A stretch of DNA of 64,000 bases from an uncultured Helicobacter sp. (lineage in GTDB: Bacteria > Campylobacterota > Campylobacteria > Campylobacterales > Helicobacteraceae). Made by a program: the position numbers and the translations under genes. Positions 1,222 to 56,573 of the stretch are shown one piece after another. Where the stretch lies: contig CASFYB010000007.1 in NCBI GenBank assembly GCA_949298825.1, forward strand, positions 62,001 through 126,000. Direction: 5' to 3'. Under the pieces are notes generated by a model that worked only from the letters and a program-made list of their open reading frames with translations, was not told where the DNA came from and did no database searches. Numbering within the stretch: the first letter of the stretch is position 1; each line of letters begins with the position of its first letter.

Positions 1222-4200
1222 TATTTAGACTCTAATACTTCAAACCTCTCTAATACTCCTTCAAAGTCATTTTTTAAACCACTTATTGCAAGCTCTCTTA
1301 GCTTGGTATTACCAGGCGAAAGTCCAAAAATAAGCATCACCACAACTGAAGGTATGCAAGATCAATACCTAAATTGGTATACGCCTTATGATATGACTGA
1401 TAAGAGCGATTCTCTTCCTCTTAGAGTAGTATGGTATAGATCGAGTAATACTAGTGATGGCAATGGTCAAACTTGGACTATTACAACTGAAGAAAAGTAC
1501 CCTGATGGTATTCCTCCGGTATACATAGTAGATAGACTAGATCTATTTTTCAATGGTGATGCTGCTAGCCAGATATGGATACTAGACCCTGATCATGAAA
1601 CTTCAAGTGTTGGTGATGATAAATCAAATAACTATGTTGTCGTCAAAGGTGGCAAAGATGCTAGTGCTATTAAAGCTGATTTTGAAAAAAGCTCTTTAGG
1701 TGAAAGCAATAATAATAGGATCGATCTACACATCGACTTTGGTAAAACCACCAATAAAACAATTGAGGTAAATAACCTTAAAGATCTTTATGGGGATTTA
1801 TATATCGCTAGTACCGGGGCTGCAACTGATAGTAATACATACAAAATGGATGCAGATAATATCTATGGAAATATTAATGTAAGCGGGAATAATAATAGCT
1901 TTATGGGCACAGTGACCATCAAAGAATTATTACACGGAGATATCCAGACTAATTCAGCCTCACTAGAAGGTGGCAATACTCCATCACTTAAAGTAGTGTT
2001 TGAAGATAAAGCTAAGATGATAGGAAGTATCAAAGGCATAGAAAGTGGTCAAGATGGCATTAAAAGAGAGATAACCTTTAAAGGTGAAGGTAAAGTATTA
2101 GAAGGGAGTATCATCTCCTTTGGTACAGAAAATAGTACCGGTAATGTAGGCTTTAATGCAGATTCTGGTAATTTTGTAACCTTTGAAAAAGGAAGTATGA
2201 AAGGTAGCATCATCGCTAGTGGTGGTAAGTCTGGAACCATCACTCATCGTGGACAAAATGTTGTTACATTTGGCACAAGCGATAATACCGCTACTACCCA
2301 TACCATAGAAGGTGGTATCTTAGCCGAGCTTATCACATCTCCAGACTGGGGTAATAACTATGGTGCACCAAATAGTCTAGCTAAAAATATCATCAATGTA
2401 GAAAAGAAAAACACGTTAAATATCACTGGCTCTGGGATAGATAATAACATTGATGATAAGGCTATTAATGGTAATGGTAGTACATTCTCCGTGCCTAAGG
2501 GTGGCATCACAGCTAGAGGATTTGCTAGTAATGAAATCAATCTAAATGAAGGCTCTACTATCAATCTTGATAATGGTAATGGTGTGATGGATACAAGCCT
2601 AGATAATCGAAATGAAGGCTATGGTGGACCAAATACAAAAAGCATCCTAACCTTTAAAGGGAAAGATGGAACCTTCAATGGCAAGATACTCTCTGATGGT
2701 AGTAATGAATATACTGATGGTGGATCTGGTGGTATTCTAACAACTAATATTATTGTTAATAAAGATGCATCAGGTACTATCACAGGTGATATCACTCAAA
2801 ATAGTGGTGGTAAAAATATGATAGAACTAGGTGTTGCTAGTGCAGGTACAAATACAGAAGTTACTATGAAGGAGTCTAGCGATCCTGCTGCTAGCACAGT
2901 TACTTCTACCCTCACCCTACAAGGTGCTACAAACCAAATAGAGCAAGTCAAAGCCACTTCTGCTGCTACACTCTTTATTGATGGTAGCAAGCATAATGGC
3001 AATAAGACTACAATTAATAGTATTGATAATACTAGTTCTAATGGTCAGAATCTAACAATCACTTTTAAAGAAGGTAGTCAAAATAAAAACTTAGCTATAA
3101 AAGCTGCTAATGGTAGTGGCACCACCATTAAAGCCTTGACTTTAGAATCTGGCTCTACAAATAACACTTTTGATCCATCACTAGCAGATAGCACAAACTC
3201 TAAACTTAGCATAACAGAGAAAGTCTCTGTAGATGCTAATCAATCTTTAAACATTAGGTTAAAAAGAGGGGAGCTTAGCCTAAATGGTGGTATTGAAACA
3301 ACAAATGGCGGTAGAACTCATATTATCGTGGATGATCTTGCAAATGCTAATGGTCAAAATAGCACTTCTGGTAATGCAACCCTAAGTGGTGGCAATGGTA
3401 ATACCATCTCATCAATGGAATTTAAAAGCTCTGATAAGAGCAAATCTGCCCTTGTGCTAAAAACTAATCTCACCATAAATGGTGATATCAAAGCTAATGG
3501 TGGAGCAAATCAAGGGGATAAAGAGCTTTTAGTAGATGCTGCTACAAGTGCGATCACTGCTAAGGCTAACTCTGTTAGTGGTGGTGGGCTATTTTTAAAT
3601 CTTAAATCAACCAATAGCAATAAAGCTATGTTTGAAATCACTGGTACAAATAATAGCCATATCAAAACTCTAGGTATATCTAACGATGATAAGGCTACCT
3701 CTAATTTTTCTACCTTCAAAGTAGATGCTGGACGCACAACAGTGGATAATCTAGCCCTAAATAACAAGCAAATCAATCTTGAGATAGGAGGAACAAATCA
3801 ATCTGCTATCTTAGAGTTTAAAGCCACTGATGGCAAACCAGATAGCTTTAATAATGTGAAGTTTGATGGATCAAACTCTACCTTAGGTCTAGCTACTAAT
3901 AATAGTGCTCAACTAGCTACTACTATCAATAAACTAGAATCAACAGGGACTAATAACACCATCAATCTATCAGGTCAAGCTTACAATGGTGGAAACACTC
4001 CAGCTAGAGATCATTTCCAAACTTTAACAATTACAAATTTAGATGCATCTAAATCTATGAACTTCATAGTCTATGTGAATCCTAATGCTAAGAATGATGC
4101 TGGTGCTAAAGCAGATAGAATCATCATTGAAGGCGTAGGCACTAATGGTGTTAATTCTAACAAAGCCACTACCCACTACCTAGCTATCACTGGTAATGCT

Positions 4201-5182
4201 GCTGATATAGTAGGCAAAGATCTTTATAAAGAAGGTAGTGCTGATAATATAGCTCTAGCTACTGTTAAGAATAGTGGTGATACTCCTATTGTTAATCTAC
4301 AAACTACTAAAGTTGTCTCTGGCTTTAGTGTGATTTCATTTGATATGGTTAGTAAGAAGACAGATAAGAATGGTAAGGTTATTATGCTTACTAGTGATGG
4401 TCCTAGTGGTGATACCTATACTACCTACTTCCTAGGAACTCGCAACTTAGATGATATGTCTTTTTCTGGACAAAAGACATTAGCAGCTGCACTTGGTACT
4501 ACCTATGATTTATATCTAGCCAATATGAACTCTTTGAATAAGAGAATGGGTGAATTAAGAGATAATCCTAAAGGTCAAGGTGTATGGGCAAGAGTATTTA
4601 CAGGATTACAAACTTCTAAGTTTGCTCTACAAACAAACTCTTTTTATACAACTATTCAAGGTGGATATGATTATGCCTTTGGATTTAATGGAGCTAATAA
4701 CTATTTAGGTTTTGCAGTTAGCTATGCTAACTCTATTACTGGTGCTAAGATGAGTAATGATCATTTAAGTGGTATTAATTCAGTCAATTCTAATGCAGTG
4801 GAATTTGCAATCTATAATGCCTATGTACAAGATGGTGCTTCTAGTGCTACAGGATGGAAGAATGGATTATATACAGATAGTATTATAAAGTTTAGTTATA
4901 TTAATAGTTCTATCTCTCTTAAAGATGGTAGTATGATTGCTAATAGCTATGCTACTAATAGCTTTGCTTTCACTCTAAGTCAAGAAGTAGGCTATCGCTT
5001 TATTTTAGGTCAATCTAATGAGTGGTATATTGATCCACAAGCAGAACTTGCTTTTGGTTATTTAGATCAATCTAATTTCAAACAAAAGCTATCTAATAGT
5101 GCTTTTATAAATGGTATTCAAGATTCTATTTTCACTCTTAGAGGAAGAGTTGGATCTAGCTTTGGATATAAGTTTGATAAGT

Positions 5183-5244
5183 TTACTGAAGGTAAGAACT
5201 TTAAAGCTCAAGCTTACTGAAGGTAAGAACTTTAAAGCTCAAGC
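5183..5244 (+). repeat. 31-bp perfect tandem duplication in the autotransporter barrel
   Basis: Two adjacent identical 31-bp units (5183-5213 and 5214-5244), followed by three matching bases of a third. Because 31 is not a multiple of three, the second copy puts a TGA at 5218-5220. Both copies encode parts of TEGKNFKAQAY, and reading across a single copy gives a continuous barrel strand (FKAQAYLGTYFVGDYIAGG). Confidence 0.9.
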
Positions 5245-14117: not shown

Positions 14118-14965
14118 ATCATGAGAATCTAAATACCTGGAATCTTATTTATTCGCATTTTGATCCTGTTGCTTTGCATATTTTTGGACTTTCGCTGCAT
14201 TGGTATGGCATAGCCTATGTATCAGCCTTACTTATCACTTTTTATATGGCCAAATATTTTGTCGCTAAAAACCAAAATCAATTCCCCATCAATACCAAGA
14301 TGTTGGAAATATTTTTTATCTATGCAGAAATAGGTGTGATCCTTGGTGCTCGCCTGGGCTATATCCTCATCTATGACCCCAACACTTCCTACTACCTCAC
14401 CCATCCATGGCAAATCTTTAACCCTTTTGATTCTCAAGGTAGCTTTATTGGCATTAGGGGGATGAGCTATCATGGTGCGATTATCGGGTTTTTGATAGCT
14501 AGTCTTATTTTTGCTAAGATTTATAAGCTCTCTTTTTTGATGCTATTAGATTTGATTGCGCTCTCTGTGCCACTTGGCTATGTCTTTGGCCGCATAGGCA
14601 ACTTTCTCAACCAAGAGCTTTTTGGTCGCCCCATCCCAGAAGGTAGCCCATGGGAGTGTGTAGGGATTATGGTTGATTCTACACTGCGCTATCCAAGCCA
14701 GCTTATTGAGGCATTTTTAGAAGGCATAGTAGTTTTTTTATGCCTACTTTATATCAAGACTAAAAAGCCTGCAAATGGGATCCTTATTGCCAGCTATGGG
14801 CTTTTATACTCATTGGCACGATTTATTGCAGAATATTTTAGGGAGCCAGATTCTCAAATGGGTGTTTTTATATTTGGGCTTTCTATGGGGCAAATTTTAA
14901 GTATTATTATGATAGTTGTTAGTATCAGTATTTTGATTTATGCACTTGCTTTTAAGCAGAGGTGA
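14114..14965 (+). CDS. lgt: Phosphatidylglycerol:prolipoprotein diacylglyceryl transferase
   Basis: Transfers diacylglycerol to the lipobox cysteine of prolipoproteins in the inner membrane, the first step of lipoprotein maturation. 283 residues with about seven membrane segments, the family signature GRIGNFLNQELFGRP, and an active-site-region HGAIIGFL segment. Clients in this window include RlpA and the two lipoproteins near 59-60 kb. It overlaps the genes on both sides by a few bases. Confidence 0.95.
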   Translation: MNHENLNTWNLIYSHFDPVALHIFGLSLHWYGIAYVSALLITFYMAKYFVAKNQNQFPINTKMLEIFFIYAEIGVILGARLGYILIYDPNTSYYLTHPWQIFNPFDSQGSFIGIRGMSYHGAIIGFLIASLIFAKIYKLSFLMLLDLIALSVPLGYVFGRIGNFLNQELFGRPIPEGSPWECVGIMVDSTLRYPSQLIEAFLEGIVVFLCLLYIKTKKPANGILIASYGLLYSLARFIAEYFREPDSQMGVFIFGLSMGQILSIIMIVVSISILIYALAFKQR

Positions 14966-14970
14966 TTCTT

Positions 14971-15984
14971 GTGGCATTTTTTTCTATCATCATTCCTATT
15001 TATAATGTCAAACCCTATTTAGATGAGTGCCTTAGCTCTGTAGAGATGCAGAGTTTTAGTGATTTTGAAGCTATTTTGATCAATGATGGTAGTAATGATG
15101 GCAGCAGAGAGATCGCTCAAAAATATGCCAGCAAAGACCCTCGCTTCATCCTCATAGATCAGGAAAATATGGGGCTTAGCGAGGCTAGAAATACCGCGCT
15201 TAAATTCCTTATTACTCGTGAAAATCTCTGGGGGGGGGGGAATATAGGACAAAACCCATCAGCACCCAGCTATATACTTTTTTTAGATTCTGATGACTAT
15301 ATCAAAAAAGATTCTCTAAAAAAGATTTTCCATATGCTTCAAAAGAAGGCTAATGGGGTAGATGTGCTTAAATATAGCTATGAGTTTATGCCCAAAAAAC
15401 CCATCCCCAAACACTTCACTCCCGCACTATATCAAAATGGCATAGATTTTATTTTGCAGCATCCATCAGTTTTAGGTGAAGGGTGTGTGTGGCTATATGC
15501 TATTTCTTTTAAATTTCTCCTAGCCCACCATTTCTCTTTTATACCTAGAATCTACTTTGAAGATATGACTTTTATTGCTGATATTCTAGTTTATGCAAAA
15601 TCAATCTATATTTGTGATGATCCATTTTATATCTACCGCTTACGAGAAGATTCCATCACACGAGCACAATGGGATGAAAAGCGCACGCTTAAAGCCTTTG
15701 AGAGTTATCTAGCCATCCTAGAGCATCATCACAATCTTATGAATAATATGGAAAATAAACAAGCTAGGAAAATTTTAAAGAGACTTATTCAAGCCTATGT
15801 CTGGTCATTTCATAATAAAGCAAGACAAACCGGCCATAAAGCCACGCCTAGCCTATATCAAAGACTGCATATTTATGAGCAAATCTACAGCCCTATGAGT
15901 AGGATCAAGATTTACTTTCCTAAAACCTATCAAACCCTAAGATCTATGAAATATCTTATTGCATCCATATTTAAAAAAAGTTAG
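14971..15984 (+). CDS. Phase-variable family 2 glycosyltransferase
   Basis: A GT-A fold, inverting glycosyltransferase, probably building LPS or another surface glycan. Visible elements are FSIIIPIYNVKPYLDECL, ILINDGSNDGS, NMGLSEARNTAL and the metal-binding FLDSDDYIKK. Between the last two lies an insertion coded by a G11 tract (NLWGGGNIG) that replaces the short loop normally found there. With G11 the frame is open, giving 337 residues, so the assembled state is ON. The GTG at 14971 is preferred (AGAGGTGA upstream, usual N-terminus AFFSIIIP); a GTG at 14962 is also possible. The C-terminus is basic. The sugar and acceptor are unknown. Confidence 0.88.
   Translation: MAFFSIIIPIYNVKPYLDECLSSVEMQSFSDFEAILINDGSNDGSREIAQKYASKDPRFILIDQENMGLSEARNTALKFLITRENLWGGGNIGQNPSAPSYILFLDSDDYIKKDSLKKIFHMLQKKANGVDVLKYSYEFMPKKPIPKHFTPALYQNGIDFILQHPSVLGEGCVWLYAISFKFLLAHHFSFIPRIYFEDMTFIADILVYAKSIYICDDPFYIYRLREDSITRAQWDEKRTLKAFESYLAILEHHHNLMNNMENKQARKILKRLIQAYVWSFHNKARQTGHKATPSLYQRLHIYEQIYSPMSRIKIYFPKTYQTLRSMKYLIASIFKKS
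15230..15240 (+). repeat. Poly-G (G11) phase-variation tract inside the GT2 gene
   Basis: Eleven consecutive G residues. G11 keeps the frame. G10 gives a TAG two codons after the tract. G12 gives a TGA about 20 codons later, in both cases before or at the DXD region, so the enzyme would be lost. This is a classic contingency tract. Confidence 0.9.
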
Positions 15985-53729: not shown

Positions 53730-54307
53730 TTTTTGAAGGCATTGATACTTGTGGCAAAAGCACACAGCTTGAGCTATTAAAACCTATTTTTCCTGATGCC
53801 ATTTTTACCAAAGAACCTGGAGGCAGTCCACTGGGTGTTAAGATCAGAGAAATCCTACTAGATGAAAAGGAGTTTCATCTAGACCCCTTAGCTGAGTTTT
53901 TCTTATTTCTAGCAGATCGAGCCCAGCTTTCATCAAGCTTGATTGCCCCTATGCACAAAGAGCATCTCATCCTATCAGATAGAAGTCTCTTATCTGGGAT
54001 TGCCTATGCCAAAGATGAGCTATTTTCTAGACTATCTGCGATAGATTTAAACCTCTTAGCAGTGCAAAATATCCTACCTGATAAAATCATACTTTTTGAG
54101 ACTACAAAAGAGCTGCTGCTTAAGCGCCTAAAAACAAAGAATAATGATTCTATAGAATTGCGCGGTATTGAATATTTGCTAGATATTCAAGATCGTCTGA
54201 AACATATCACCTTTAAGCTATGCAAAGATAAAGAAATCTTACTACTTGATGCGAGCAAAGATATTACATCCTTGCATACACAAATCCTTAATTTCCTTAA
54301 AGACTAA
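53720..54307 (+). CDS. tmk: Thymidylate kinase
   Basis: Phosphorylates dTMP. 195 residues with the P-loop [14 protein letters not shown], the DR motif in [13 protein letters not shown], and [11 protein letters not shown]. Overlaps the end of coaD and shares its last base with the next start. Confidence 0.95.
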
Positions 54308-54876
54308 TGCGCTGCATAGTATGTGAGGCCCTAAGTCTTAGGGCAATCTGCACTGCCTGCCAAGAAGAATTTCTAGTCCCAAAAATACAAGTCCGTCTTA
54401 TTGAAAATATTAAAGTCTATAGTTTTTATAGTTTTGATTCACTTCAATTTTTACTCAGTTCTAAATACTATAGCATTGGCTCACGCATCTATACCATTAT
54501 GGCTAAACGCGCTATGTTATATTTTAAAAACCACCCACCATCTCATATAAACAAAACCACCTATGCGTTAGGTATTGATTCTCCTCTTTATAATGCCTAC
54601 TCTCATACTGCCATCATTCTACATGCCTTTAGAAAGATCTTTATACCAATTTATGGCGAGCTAAGAGCACAAAATAAAGTTAAATATGCTGGCAAAAGCT
54701 TAGAGTTTAGACGCAATAATCCTAGAGGCCTAATCTATAAATCTGGAAATATTGATTGTGTAGTCATGGATGATGTGATCACCACAGGTACAAGTATGCT
54801 AGAAGCTAGAGATGTGATTACAAAAGGTGGAGGGAATTTCCTTTATGGTATCACGCTCTGTGATGCTGCTATATAA
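54307..54876 (+). CDS. ComFC-like phosphoribosyltransferase-fold protein
   Basis: 189 residues: four N-terminal cysteines (C3, C6, C15, C18) suited for zinc, then a PRTase fold with the PRPP loop VVMDDVITTGTSML. ComFC/ComF proteins are needed for natural transformation after DNA uptake. Last gene of the serS operon. Confidence 0.85.
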   Translation: MRCIVCEALSLRAICTACQEEFLVPKIQVRLIENIKVYSFYSFDSLQFLLSSKYYSIGSRIYTIMAKRAMLYFKNHPPSHINKTTYALGIDSPLYNAYSHTAIILHAFRKIFIPIYGELRAQNKVKYAGKSLEFRRNNPRGLIYKSGNIDCVVMDDVITTGTSMLEARDVITKGGGNFLYGITLCDAAI

Positions 54877-54993
54877 CCACAACCCACAAAAACCTCCAAG
54901 CAAGTTAAATAAAAAGTAAAAAATACTTAATACCTCTCTTTTTTCTAGGTTACAAGAATTTTTCTAGTTTCTAGCAATCAAGGTCTGTAATAA

Positions 54994-55002
54994 TGATAAA
55001 AT
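54994..55002 (+). promoter_or_regulatory. Candidate extended -10 promoter of the GT6 gene
   Basis: TGATAAAAT, 36 bp before the GT6 start, fits an extended -10 with one mismatch. The 162-bp gap after comFC shows no clear terminator hairpin; AAGGATTTTT is the ribosome site. Confidence 0.5.
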
Positions 55003-55038
55003 AGGAGATTATTAAAGTTAGTACTATCAAGGATTTTT

Positions 55039-55863
55039 ATGCAGAAAAAACAGCAATATAAAATTGCTATCCTCTATATATGTACAGGAAAATATGATAT
55101 TTTTTGGAAAGATTTCTTTCTTAGTGCAGAAAAGTTTTTCCTACCAAAGCATCATAAAGAATATTTTATTTTTACAGATAAAGAACTCTATGCACAAGAT
55201 ACCTGCTCTAGAATCCATAAATTCTATCAAGAAAATTTGGGCTGGCCATTTAATACCCTCAAGCGCTTTGAAATGTTTTTACGCATCAAAGAGCAACTAA
55301 AAAACTTTGATTTTATCTTTTTTATGAATGCAAATTTAGAGTTTTTAAAAGAAGTAAATGAAGAGTTTTTACCCATAGAAGAGAACTTCACTCTTGCACA
55401 ACATGCTGGATTCTACTACAACAAGCCAGCAGAGTTTACCTATGACAGGAACCCCAAAAGCACTGCTTATATCCCATATGATAGAGGAAAATATTATGTT
55501 TGTGGTGGTATGAATGGTGGCAAAACTAAATATTATTTAGAGCTGATACAAACCCTTTATGAAAATACAGAAAAAGATCTGCAAAATAATGTCATTGCCC
55601 TATGGCATGATGAATCTCATCTCAATCACTACATACTAGATAGAAATGACTATAAACTTTTACATCCTGGATACTGCTACCCTCAAGATCAGGATAATAT
55701 CCCTGAATGCGAATGCTTCATCCTAGCCAGAAATAAAGATCGCTATTTTGATACCTTTAAACTCAAAGGCTGGAAACGCCATCAAGAAAGCAAGTTAAAA
55801 AAGCTAGTTAAAAAACTTATCCACAAAAAAGTTAGAACTGTTATTAAGTCCTTACTAAAATAA
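55039..55863 (+). CDS. Family GT6 glycosyltransferase (ABO histo-blood-group type)
   Basis: 274 residues, related to mammalian ABO and alpha-1,3-galactosyltransferases. Seen in order: EYFIFTDKEL, GWPFNTLKRFEMF, FMNANLEF (N97-A98-N99 where mammals have DXD), YDRNPKSTAYIPYDRGKYY, CGGMNGG and WHDESHLNHYIL (189-200, with the catalytic-type glutamate in HDES). Bacterial members have NXN and are metal-independent. The retained reaction is alpha-1,3 transfer of Gal or GalNAc, usually onto a fucosylated H-type acceptor. The residues aligned to the human A/B-deciding pair read C-G-G; the glycine suggests, but does not prove, GalNAc (A-type). The end is a cationic helix (KLKKLVKKLIHKKVRTVIKS), probably membrane-binding. 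It is a single gene between housekeeping genes. Confidence 0.92.
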   Translation: MQKKQQYKIAILYICTGKYDIFWKDFFLSAEKFFLPKHHKEYFIFTDKELYAQDTCSRIHKFYQENLGWPFNTLKRFEMFLRIKEQLKNFDFIFFMNANLEFLKEVNEEFLPIEENFTLAQHAGFYYNKPAEFTYDRNPKSTAYIPYDRGKYYVCGGMNGGKTKYYLELIQTLYENTEKDLQNNVIALWHDESHLNHYILDRNDYKLLHPGYCYPQDQDNIPECECFILARNKDRYFDTFKLKGWKRHQESKLKKLVKKLIHKKVRTVIKSLLK

Positions 55864-55958: not shown

Positions 55959-56519
55959 ATGAAAAAATTTCTTGCTTTTTTAGGATTAAGCATTGCCATC
56001 AGCTCACTTCAAGCAGCAAGTCTAGATCTGCAAAACGCAACTACAACCTGGACTGCCTATAAAACAGAAGATAAAACTCCTGTAAGTGGCTCATTTGAAA
56101 AGATTGAATATAAATTTGGTAAAAACATCAATGATATAGCCAAAACTCTAGAAGGCGCAACTGCCATGATCGATCCAATGAGCGCTGATCTTAAAGATGA
56201 GGTAAAAAATGCCAATGTTCGTGGACACTTTTTTGCTCATTTTGCAAAAAAAGATTCTATTAAAGTAAAGTTTTCTAATGTATTTCTAGCCAAAGATAAA
56301 GGTAGCCTTCTTGCTTCTGTTAATATGAATGGCAAAACTATAAAAGTACCTATGCAAATTGAAATATCTAATGGAAAACTTGTAGCAAAAGGAGTGATTG
56401 ACATCCTTGCCTTTGGTGCTAAAGATGCACTCAAAGCTTTAGCTACACAATGCTTTGACTTGCACTCTGGCATTACTTGGCCACAAGTAGAGATTAGCTT
56501 TTCTGCTCCTGTCAAATAA
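55959..56519 (+). CDS. YceI-family periplasmic lipid/isoprenoid-binding protein
   Basis: 186 residues: a signal peptide (MKKFLAFLGLSIAISSLQA) and a lipocalin-like beta-barrel (TTTWTAYKTEDKTPVSGSFE, VRGHFFAHFAKKDSIKVKFS). Family members bind polyisoprenoids; the H. pylori homologue HP1286 binds a fatty acid or amide. The ATG at 55959 behind AAGGAT is used rather than a GTG two codons upstream. Confidence 0.88.
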   Translation: MKKFLAFLGLSIAISSLQAASLDLQNATTTWTAYKTEDKTPVSGSFEKIEYKFGKNINDIAKTLEGATAMIDPMSADLKDEVKNANVRGHFFAHFAKKDSIKVKFSNVFLAKDKGSLLASVNMNGKTIKVPMQIEISNGKLVAKGVIDILAFGAKDALKALATQCFDLHSGITWPQVEISFSAPVK

Positions 56520-56523
56520 ATAA

Positions 56524-56545
56524 GGGGGTGCCTACCCCCCCCCCC
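56524..56545 (+). terminator. yceI terminator hairpin containing a C11 tract
   Basis: GGGGGT, loop GCCT, ACCCCC form a stem four bases after the yceI stop; the C run then continues to eleven (56535-56545) and is followed by CTATCTTGCTTTATTTTA. A homopolymer of this length is slippage-prone. It lies about 30 bp upstream of a likely modA -10 box. Confidence 0.6.
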
Positions 56546-56573
56546 TATCTTGCTTTATTTTATATTTTTATAT

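Follow-up and report, generated by a model that had tools for sequence, protein, structure and literature searches.

A family 6 glycosyltransferase gene in an uncultured Helicobacter without a detectable GT11 partner

Natural anti-carbohydrate antibodies are suspected to stem from bacterial A, B and alpha-Gal-like sugars, which also constitute host mimicry. ABO enzymes require a Fuc-alpha-1,2-Gal acceptor. The closest known counterpart is H. mustelae BgtA, an alpha-1,3-GalNAc transferase of family GT6 that makes blood group A on LPS and is encoded in a GT6/GT11 gene pair, HMU12050 and HMU12060 (PMC2846917). B. ovatus BoGT6a (4ayj, 4cj8) is a metal-independent GalNAc transferase that acts on 2'-fucosyllactose, and NXN-type GT6 enzymes are metal-independent (PMC3961637). 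Those bacterial GT6 enzymes that have been characterised take Fuc-alpha-1,2-Gal as their acceptor, and the internal fucose of Lewis b blocks them; HmBgtA and WbnI are reported inactive on Lewis b (PMC12723683).

Here we analyse a GT6 gene in a 64,000-nucleotide stretch of DNA (the window) from an uncultured Helicobacter sp., whose genome is a 1.42 Mb draft in 25 contigs that is 99.99% complete. The gene encodes a further member of an already known family, and the surprising part is its absent partner.

The GT6 enzyme and its donor sugar

The 55039-55863 ORF starts with ATG and encodes a true bacterial GT6 enzyme. Pfam PF03414 matches it with E=1.3e-32 and 113 bits (cut-off 25), the profile covering the catalytic domain, and NCBIfam NF041524 scores 282.9 bits (cut-off 250). 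The latter model is titled 'family 6 glucosyltransferase', yet characterised members transfer Gal or GalNAc. In a PDB search the protein matched BoGT6a (4ayj) with E=3e-67, while for the human ABO transferases E was about 1e-28. BoGT6a was also the top Foldseek match (E=4e-27, TM (target) 0.85) of an AlphaFold2 model whose mean pLDDT is 70 and which is poor beyond residue 215 except for the final helix. Alignment and model together reveal a GT-A fold, the WHDE motif and the catalytic Glu. When aligned with the residues described for BoGT6a, N97, A98, N99, W69, H122, T134, W189, D191, E192 and K233 are retained, E192 corresponding to the key residue by BoGT6a numbering (PMC3961637). The catalytic residues are all kept in both the window gene and its H. 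anseris counterpart. The WHDESHLN motif is letter-identical to that of human GTA, and the loop FYYNKPAEFTYDRNPKSTAYIP is similar to the BoGT6a acceptor loop. A preliminary description had recognised the GT6 pattern and a bacterial NAN in place of DXD, and both readings are upheld. Feature positions are collected in Table 1.

Table 1. Features of the GT6 locus, in window coordinates
Feature	Position	Strand	Basis or remark
comFC, end of conserved run	54307..54876	+	run seen in four other genomes examined
Intergenic stretch 5' of GT6, 162 bases	54877..55038	.	GC 27.8%
GT6 glycosyltransferase gene, 274 aa	55039..55863	+	PF03414, NF041524, PDB and fold matches
N97-A98-N99, in place of DXD metal-binding motif	55327..55335	+	alignment
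H122-A-G124, matching human GTA His233 and Gly235 (ABO-like; 235 as in A)	55402..55410	+	alignment
C155-G156-G157, donor-selecting tripeptide (human codons 266-268)	55501..55509	+	alignment
W189-HDESHLN196, catalytic and acceptor motif	55603..55626	+	alignment; PMC3961637
K233, equivalent of BoGT6a Lys231 (leaving-group stabilisation)	55735..55737	+	alignment; PMC3961637
Basic amphipathic helix at the C-terminus, candidate inner-membrane anchor	55783..55857	+	model helix 249-273
YceI-like gene 3' of GT6	55959..56519 (alternative start 55953)	+	PF04264

At the donor-selecting tripeptide, human enzymes carry L-G-G (A) or M-G-A (B), and alignment places C-G-G at these positions in the window GT6. 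Other aligned enzymes have Y-G-S (BgtA), Q-G-S (genome G044), R-G-G (G093) and A-G-G (BoGT6a), and the paralogues of G101 and G102 have A-G-G and M-G-A. At the equivalents of 235, 266 and 268 the window enzyme reads G, C and G, and the proven A-type BgtA reads G, Y and S. The glycine of the tripeptide had been noted as the one found in A-type enzymes, and it is indeed A-like, but the motif does not settle the donor in bacteria because Y-G-S stands there in BgtA, whose GalNAc transfer is proven; we therefore rejected deduction of the donor from C-G-G alone as proof. Glycine at both the 235 and 268 equivalents leans toward GalNAc as the predicted donor.

Campylobacterota GalE enzymes of the kind found here also act on UDP-GlcNAc. 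The GalE of the window genome exceeds its NCBIfam cut-off and has 7k3p as its closest PDB entry; a UDP-Gal supply is present in this genome, and UDP-GalNAc probably is too.

Two Helicobacteraceae genomes, G101 (L091/L007, L094/L009) and G102 (L092/L006, L095/L010), have two GT6 genes each, one copy being A-like (G235, A-G-G) and the other bearing the human B tripeptide M-G-A. The M-G-A copy of G101 also has Ser at 235, as does human GTB, and lies behind a GT9 heptosyltransferase domain in a single 640-residue ORF (L094:7596-9518, minus strand) with a second GT9 gene upstream.

The C-terminal helix has a hydrophobic moment of 0.59 and the last 37 residues carry a charge of +12, in a weak test in which 7% of shuffles reach this value. 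As the C-terminal tail of BoGT6a has lipid-binding character (PMC3961637), the basic amphipathic helix suggests a peripheral place at the inner membrane, which is plausible on the model and the BoGT6a analogy.

Genomic setting, distribution and selection

The GTDB genus set of the window genome consists of six genomes, one of which (1,576,607 bases, one contig) carries the GT6/GT11 pair expected of H. mustelae. The nearest named relative, the goose isolate H. anseris 2013ZJHSD2 (JXTW01000008), shows 83.7% DNA identity over 16.7 kb and is therefore a different species; it has a GT6 gene at the equivalent place with 93% protein identity.

Upstream of GT6 lies what we take, by gene recognition, to be the run UvrD/Rep-like helicase-flgA-ubiX-coaD-tmk-comFC, which is kept in all four of the other genomes examined. 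An M23 peptidase gene and further genes come after comFC in G001 and G005, and GT6, yceI and mod genes were not found near comFC in either genome or in H. mustelae. Because the surroundings of comFC differ in these genomes, GT6 sits at a rearrangement point, and the intergenic stretch before it has another length and sequence in H. anseris. The gene lies outside any polysaccharide cluster. At 32.4% its GC content is below the ORF mean of 37.8% and is the second lowest among 60 ORFs. The order comFC-GT6-yceI given previously is correct as stated, and the GC content and the location agree with the acquisition proposed along with it.

A hairpin, GGGGGTGCCTACCCCC, with an 11-C run occupies window positions 56523-56546 between yceI and modA, and the H. 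anseris yceI-modA gap holds an unrelated hairpin without a C run. A GT2-like glycosyltransferase gene at 14962-15984 has a G11 tract inside it at 15230 and is likely phase-variable. A G9 tract at 1213 stands just before a large autotransporter-like ORF (1303-5220) with a TTG start, the real start of which may lie upstream, beyond the tract.

No homopolymer tract was found in the window GT6 gene, and phase variation of GT6 itself is rejected on this ground. The GT6 genes of H. anseris and H. mustelae likewise carry no such tract, but the majority of those elsewhere in Helicobacteraceae have G or C tracts of 10-16 bases; the tract-bearing loci are L093:7340-8340 (G093), L026, L006, L007 and L010. 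In G093 the GT6 gene is broken into two reading frames, has a G10 tract close to it and looks phase-off, not dead.

Of 121 genomes of Helicobacteraceae, seven were positive for GT6, as against none of 14 controls, which bears out the earlier remark that the family is patchy. In the GT6 tree, of which the root and long branches are unsure, the window enzyme pairs with that of H. anseris, and a clade with support 94/97 unites it with BgtA, G044 and a human-gut scaffold. The parallel with H. mustelae that had been drawn thus holds, BgtA being 49% identical, from the same genus group and in the same supported clade. Recent capture from an animal host is rejected on the basis of the bacterial clade and of an identity of 32% to human GTA versus 45-49% to bacterial GT6.

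Searches for GT6 in viral contigs and, by DNA similarity, in E. coli found none. Phage GT6 matches are mostly from cyanophages (33-38% identity), and the closest 'phage' record, at 49%, is MT838506 (L102), a human-gut scaffold deposited as 'Bacteriophage sp.' that carries a C-G-G GT6. Its GT2 genes and O-antigen-type ABC exporter suggest that it is a bacterial polysaccharide cluster.

Between the window and H. anseris the dN/dS of GT6 is 0.066 at a dS of 0.475. The dS of GT6 (0.48) is close to that of yceI (0.50), and other neighbours range from 0.65 to 1.9. A dN/dS this low between two species indicates purifying selection with function kept, and judged from these substitution rates the window GT6 is retained and functional.

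Fucose pathway and the candidate acceptor

The window genome has the GDP-fucose synthesis genes manC and gmd in one cluster and fcl beside a PglK-like flippase gene, the fcl profile score of 472 being slightly below the curated cut-off of 500. A search for GT11 (PF01531) gave no match in this genome or in H. anseris 2013ZJHSD2, an independent assembly that is ~99% complete; the same search was positive in H. mustelae and in 60 of 121 family genomes, and GT11 is present in the remaining five GT6 carriers of the family. Likewise, a tblastn search using 30 GT11 proteins as queries gave no hit in the stretches fetched from the window genome, among them contig C24 (3084 bases) and the end of C15. 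At these contig ends a sugar-nucleotide cluster is interrupted, its genes encoding a glucose-1-phosphate cytidylyltransferase, epimerases and a nucleotide-sugar dehydrogenase.

GT11 adjoins GT6 in H. mustelae. In one Prevotella record and one Phocaeicola record it lies directly 3' of GT6, and phage P-SSM2 has the two close together. Across the family, co-occurrence of GT6 and GT11 was not significant beyond chance (5/7 versus 60/121, Fisher p=0.21), so we rely on gene adjacency only.

The fucosyltransferase that was found stands beside gmd (L023:9594-10634, contig C5) and is a GT10 of alpha-1,3 type with FucT_N and Glyco_transf_10 domains, its best structure match being H. pylori FucT. The gene contains an in-frame G11 tract and is likely phase-variable; H. 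anseris 2013ZJHSD2 also has a GT10 gene next to gmd, again with a G11 tract. Given this tract, the switch would act on fucosylation and not on GT6. A GT25 enzyme was found in the window genome and in H. anseris 2013ZJHSD2, and the linkages made by GT25 and GT10 in the window genome are predicted ones.

The preliminary description had proposed a blood-group antigen and suggested looking for an alpha-1,2-fucosyltransferase. The fucose donor pathway is there, but GT11 is missing from both the window genome and its nearest relative, and the claim of an ABO antigen is not supported. With no alpha-1,2-fucose there would be no H antigen, and a classical A or B antigen is not to be assumed. Blood-group mimicry by this enzyme is possible, although the gene inventory gives no support to it. 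Because the genome has no detectable enzyme for the usual blood-group precursor, it is more likely that the window GT6 caps a different surface sugar.

Family, motifs, gene inventory and purifying selection are shown; from them we infer which donor and acceptor the enzyme uses, and where and in what order it acts. Our leading though tentative reading, which we hold at somewhat less than an even chance, is that the window GT6 is a metal-independent alpha-1,3-Gal/GalNAc transferase capping an LPS beta-galactose without alpha-1,2-fucose. The retaining enzyme would probably work on the cytoplasmic side of the inner membrane and, prior to export, give a beta-galactose in a lipid-linked O-chain or in the LPS core a terminal alpha-Gal or alpha-GalNAc. 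As the usual GT11 is missing in this lineage, the acceptor would most likely be a galactose without alpha-1,2-fucose, e.g. Gal-beta-1,4-GlcNAc made by the GT25 enzyme; with GT11 absent and GT10 and GT25 present, this galactose with an alpha-Gal or alpha-GalNAc cap is the simplest product. The phase-tract GT10 would add alpha-1,3-fucose on the neighbouring GlcNAc, perhaps after GT6, since HmBgtA and WbnI are inactive on Lewis b. Such a product would look like linear B/alpha-Gal, or like the GalNAc analogue of it, and might also bear a Lewis-x-type fucose; it would not be a true ABO antigen. Some observations count against this reading: H122 and G124 match GTA His233/Gly235, the loop FYYNKPAEFTYDRNPKSTAYIP is like that of BoGT6a, which uses 2'-fucosyllactose, BgtA, the nearest characterised enzyme, uses Fuc-alpha-1,2-Gal, and GT6 and GT11 do not co-occur in the family more often than chance predicts. 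The fuller scenario, in which GT6 has parted from an alpha-1,2-fucosyltransferase and now places an alpha-Gal or alpha-GalNAc end on a Lewis-x-type backbone switched by phase-variable GT10, is a possibility that we rate well short of probable.

The same acceptor-side residues, being ABO-like, are why we still give a true A-like or B-like antigen on LPS a chance of roughly one in three. GT6 would then complete GalNAc/Gal-alpha-1,3-(Fuc-alpha-1,2)Gal as in H. mustelae, using an alpha-1,2-fucosyltransferase of unrecognised type or one encoded in the unassembled part. The clade shared with BgtA, the GT11 genes beside or near GT6 elsewhere and the cluster broken at the ends of C15 and C24 are consistent with it; the absence of GT11 from two near-complete assemblies of two species and the empty tblastn search argue against it.

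It is unlikely that GT6 caps an unrelated glycan, either a beta-GalNAc acceptor (Forssman-like) or a protein or flagellin glycan. Mammalian GT6 relatives do use Gal, GalNAc and glycolipid acceptors, with tripeptide changes shifting the acceptor (PMC6351642), and the window gene stands outside polysaccharide clusters; however, the closest characterised bacterial enzymes (BgtA, BoGT6a, WbnI) use fucosylated galactose, and the GT6-GT9 fusion in the relative G101 points to LPS. That the gene is an orphan relic heading for loss, its product no longer made, would fit a missing GT11 partner and a gene standing alone, but is very improbable given the low dN/dS and an intact ORF with every catalytic residue in two species ~16% apart in DNA.

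If capping of a non-H acceptor is correct, it would constitute a bacterial route to alpha-Gal-like antigens separate from ABO mimicry, and a selected GT6 without an alpha-1,2-fucosyltransferase in Helicobacter would show that bacterial GT6 is not always ABO mimicry. GT6 genes should not be read as blood-group genes before GT11 has been checked. This organism, in whose 1.4 Mb genome a single GT6 and a single fucosyltransferase were detected, offers a clean system for finding the true acceptor.

Comparison with known systems

Mammalian GGTA1 acts on LacNAc without alpha-1,2-fucose and in this resembles the activity proposed for the window GT6; at the site of the window His-Ala-Gly-Phe it presumably has Gln-Ala-Trp-Trp. 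Its tripeptide is H-A-A (PMC6351642). Human GTA and GTB share with the window enzyme the GT-A fold, WHDESHLN and the His233 and Gly235 equivalents, but they are 32% identical to it, have DXD, depend on metal and are type II Golgi proteins; the window GT6 groups with bacterial enzymes and, although rooting is weak, is not a recent host gene.

BoGT6a is 49% identical, with the same catalytic and UDP-site residues and a near-identical acceptor loop. It differs in its tripeptide (A-G-G versus C-G-G) and in its C-terminus beyond the conserved Lys, and a GT11 partner is absent from the window genome. BgtA is likewise an NXN-type GT6, at ~49% identity, and differs in its Y-G-S tripeptide. The two Helicobacter genomes diverge in the surrounding gene inventory: H. 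mustelae has GT11 adjoining GT6 with a C12 tract upstream, and neither GT10 nor GT25 was detected there (the latter by the search that found it in the window genome), whereas the window genome, without a detected GT11, has both.
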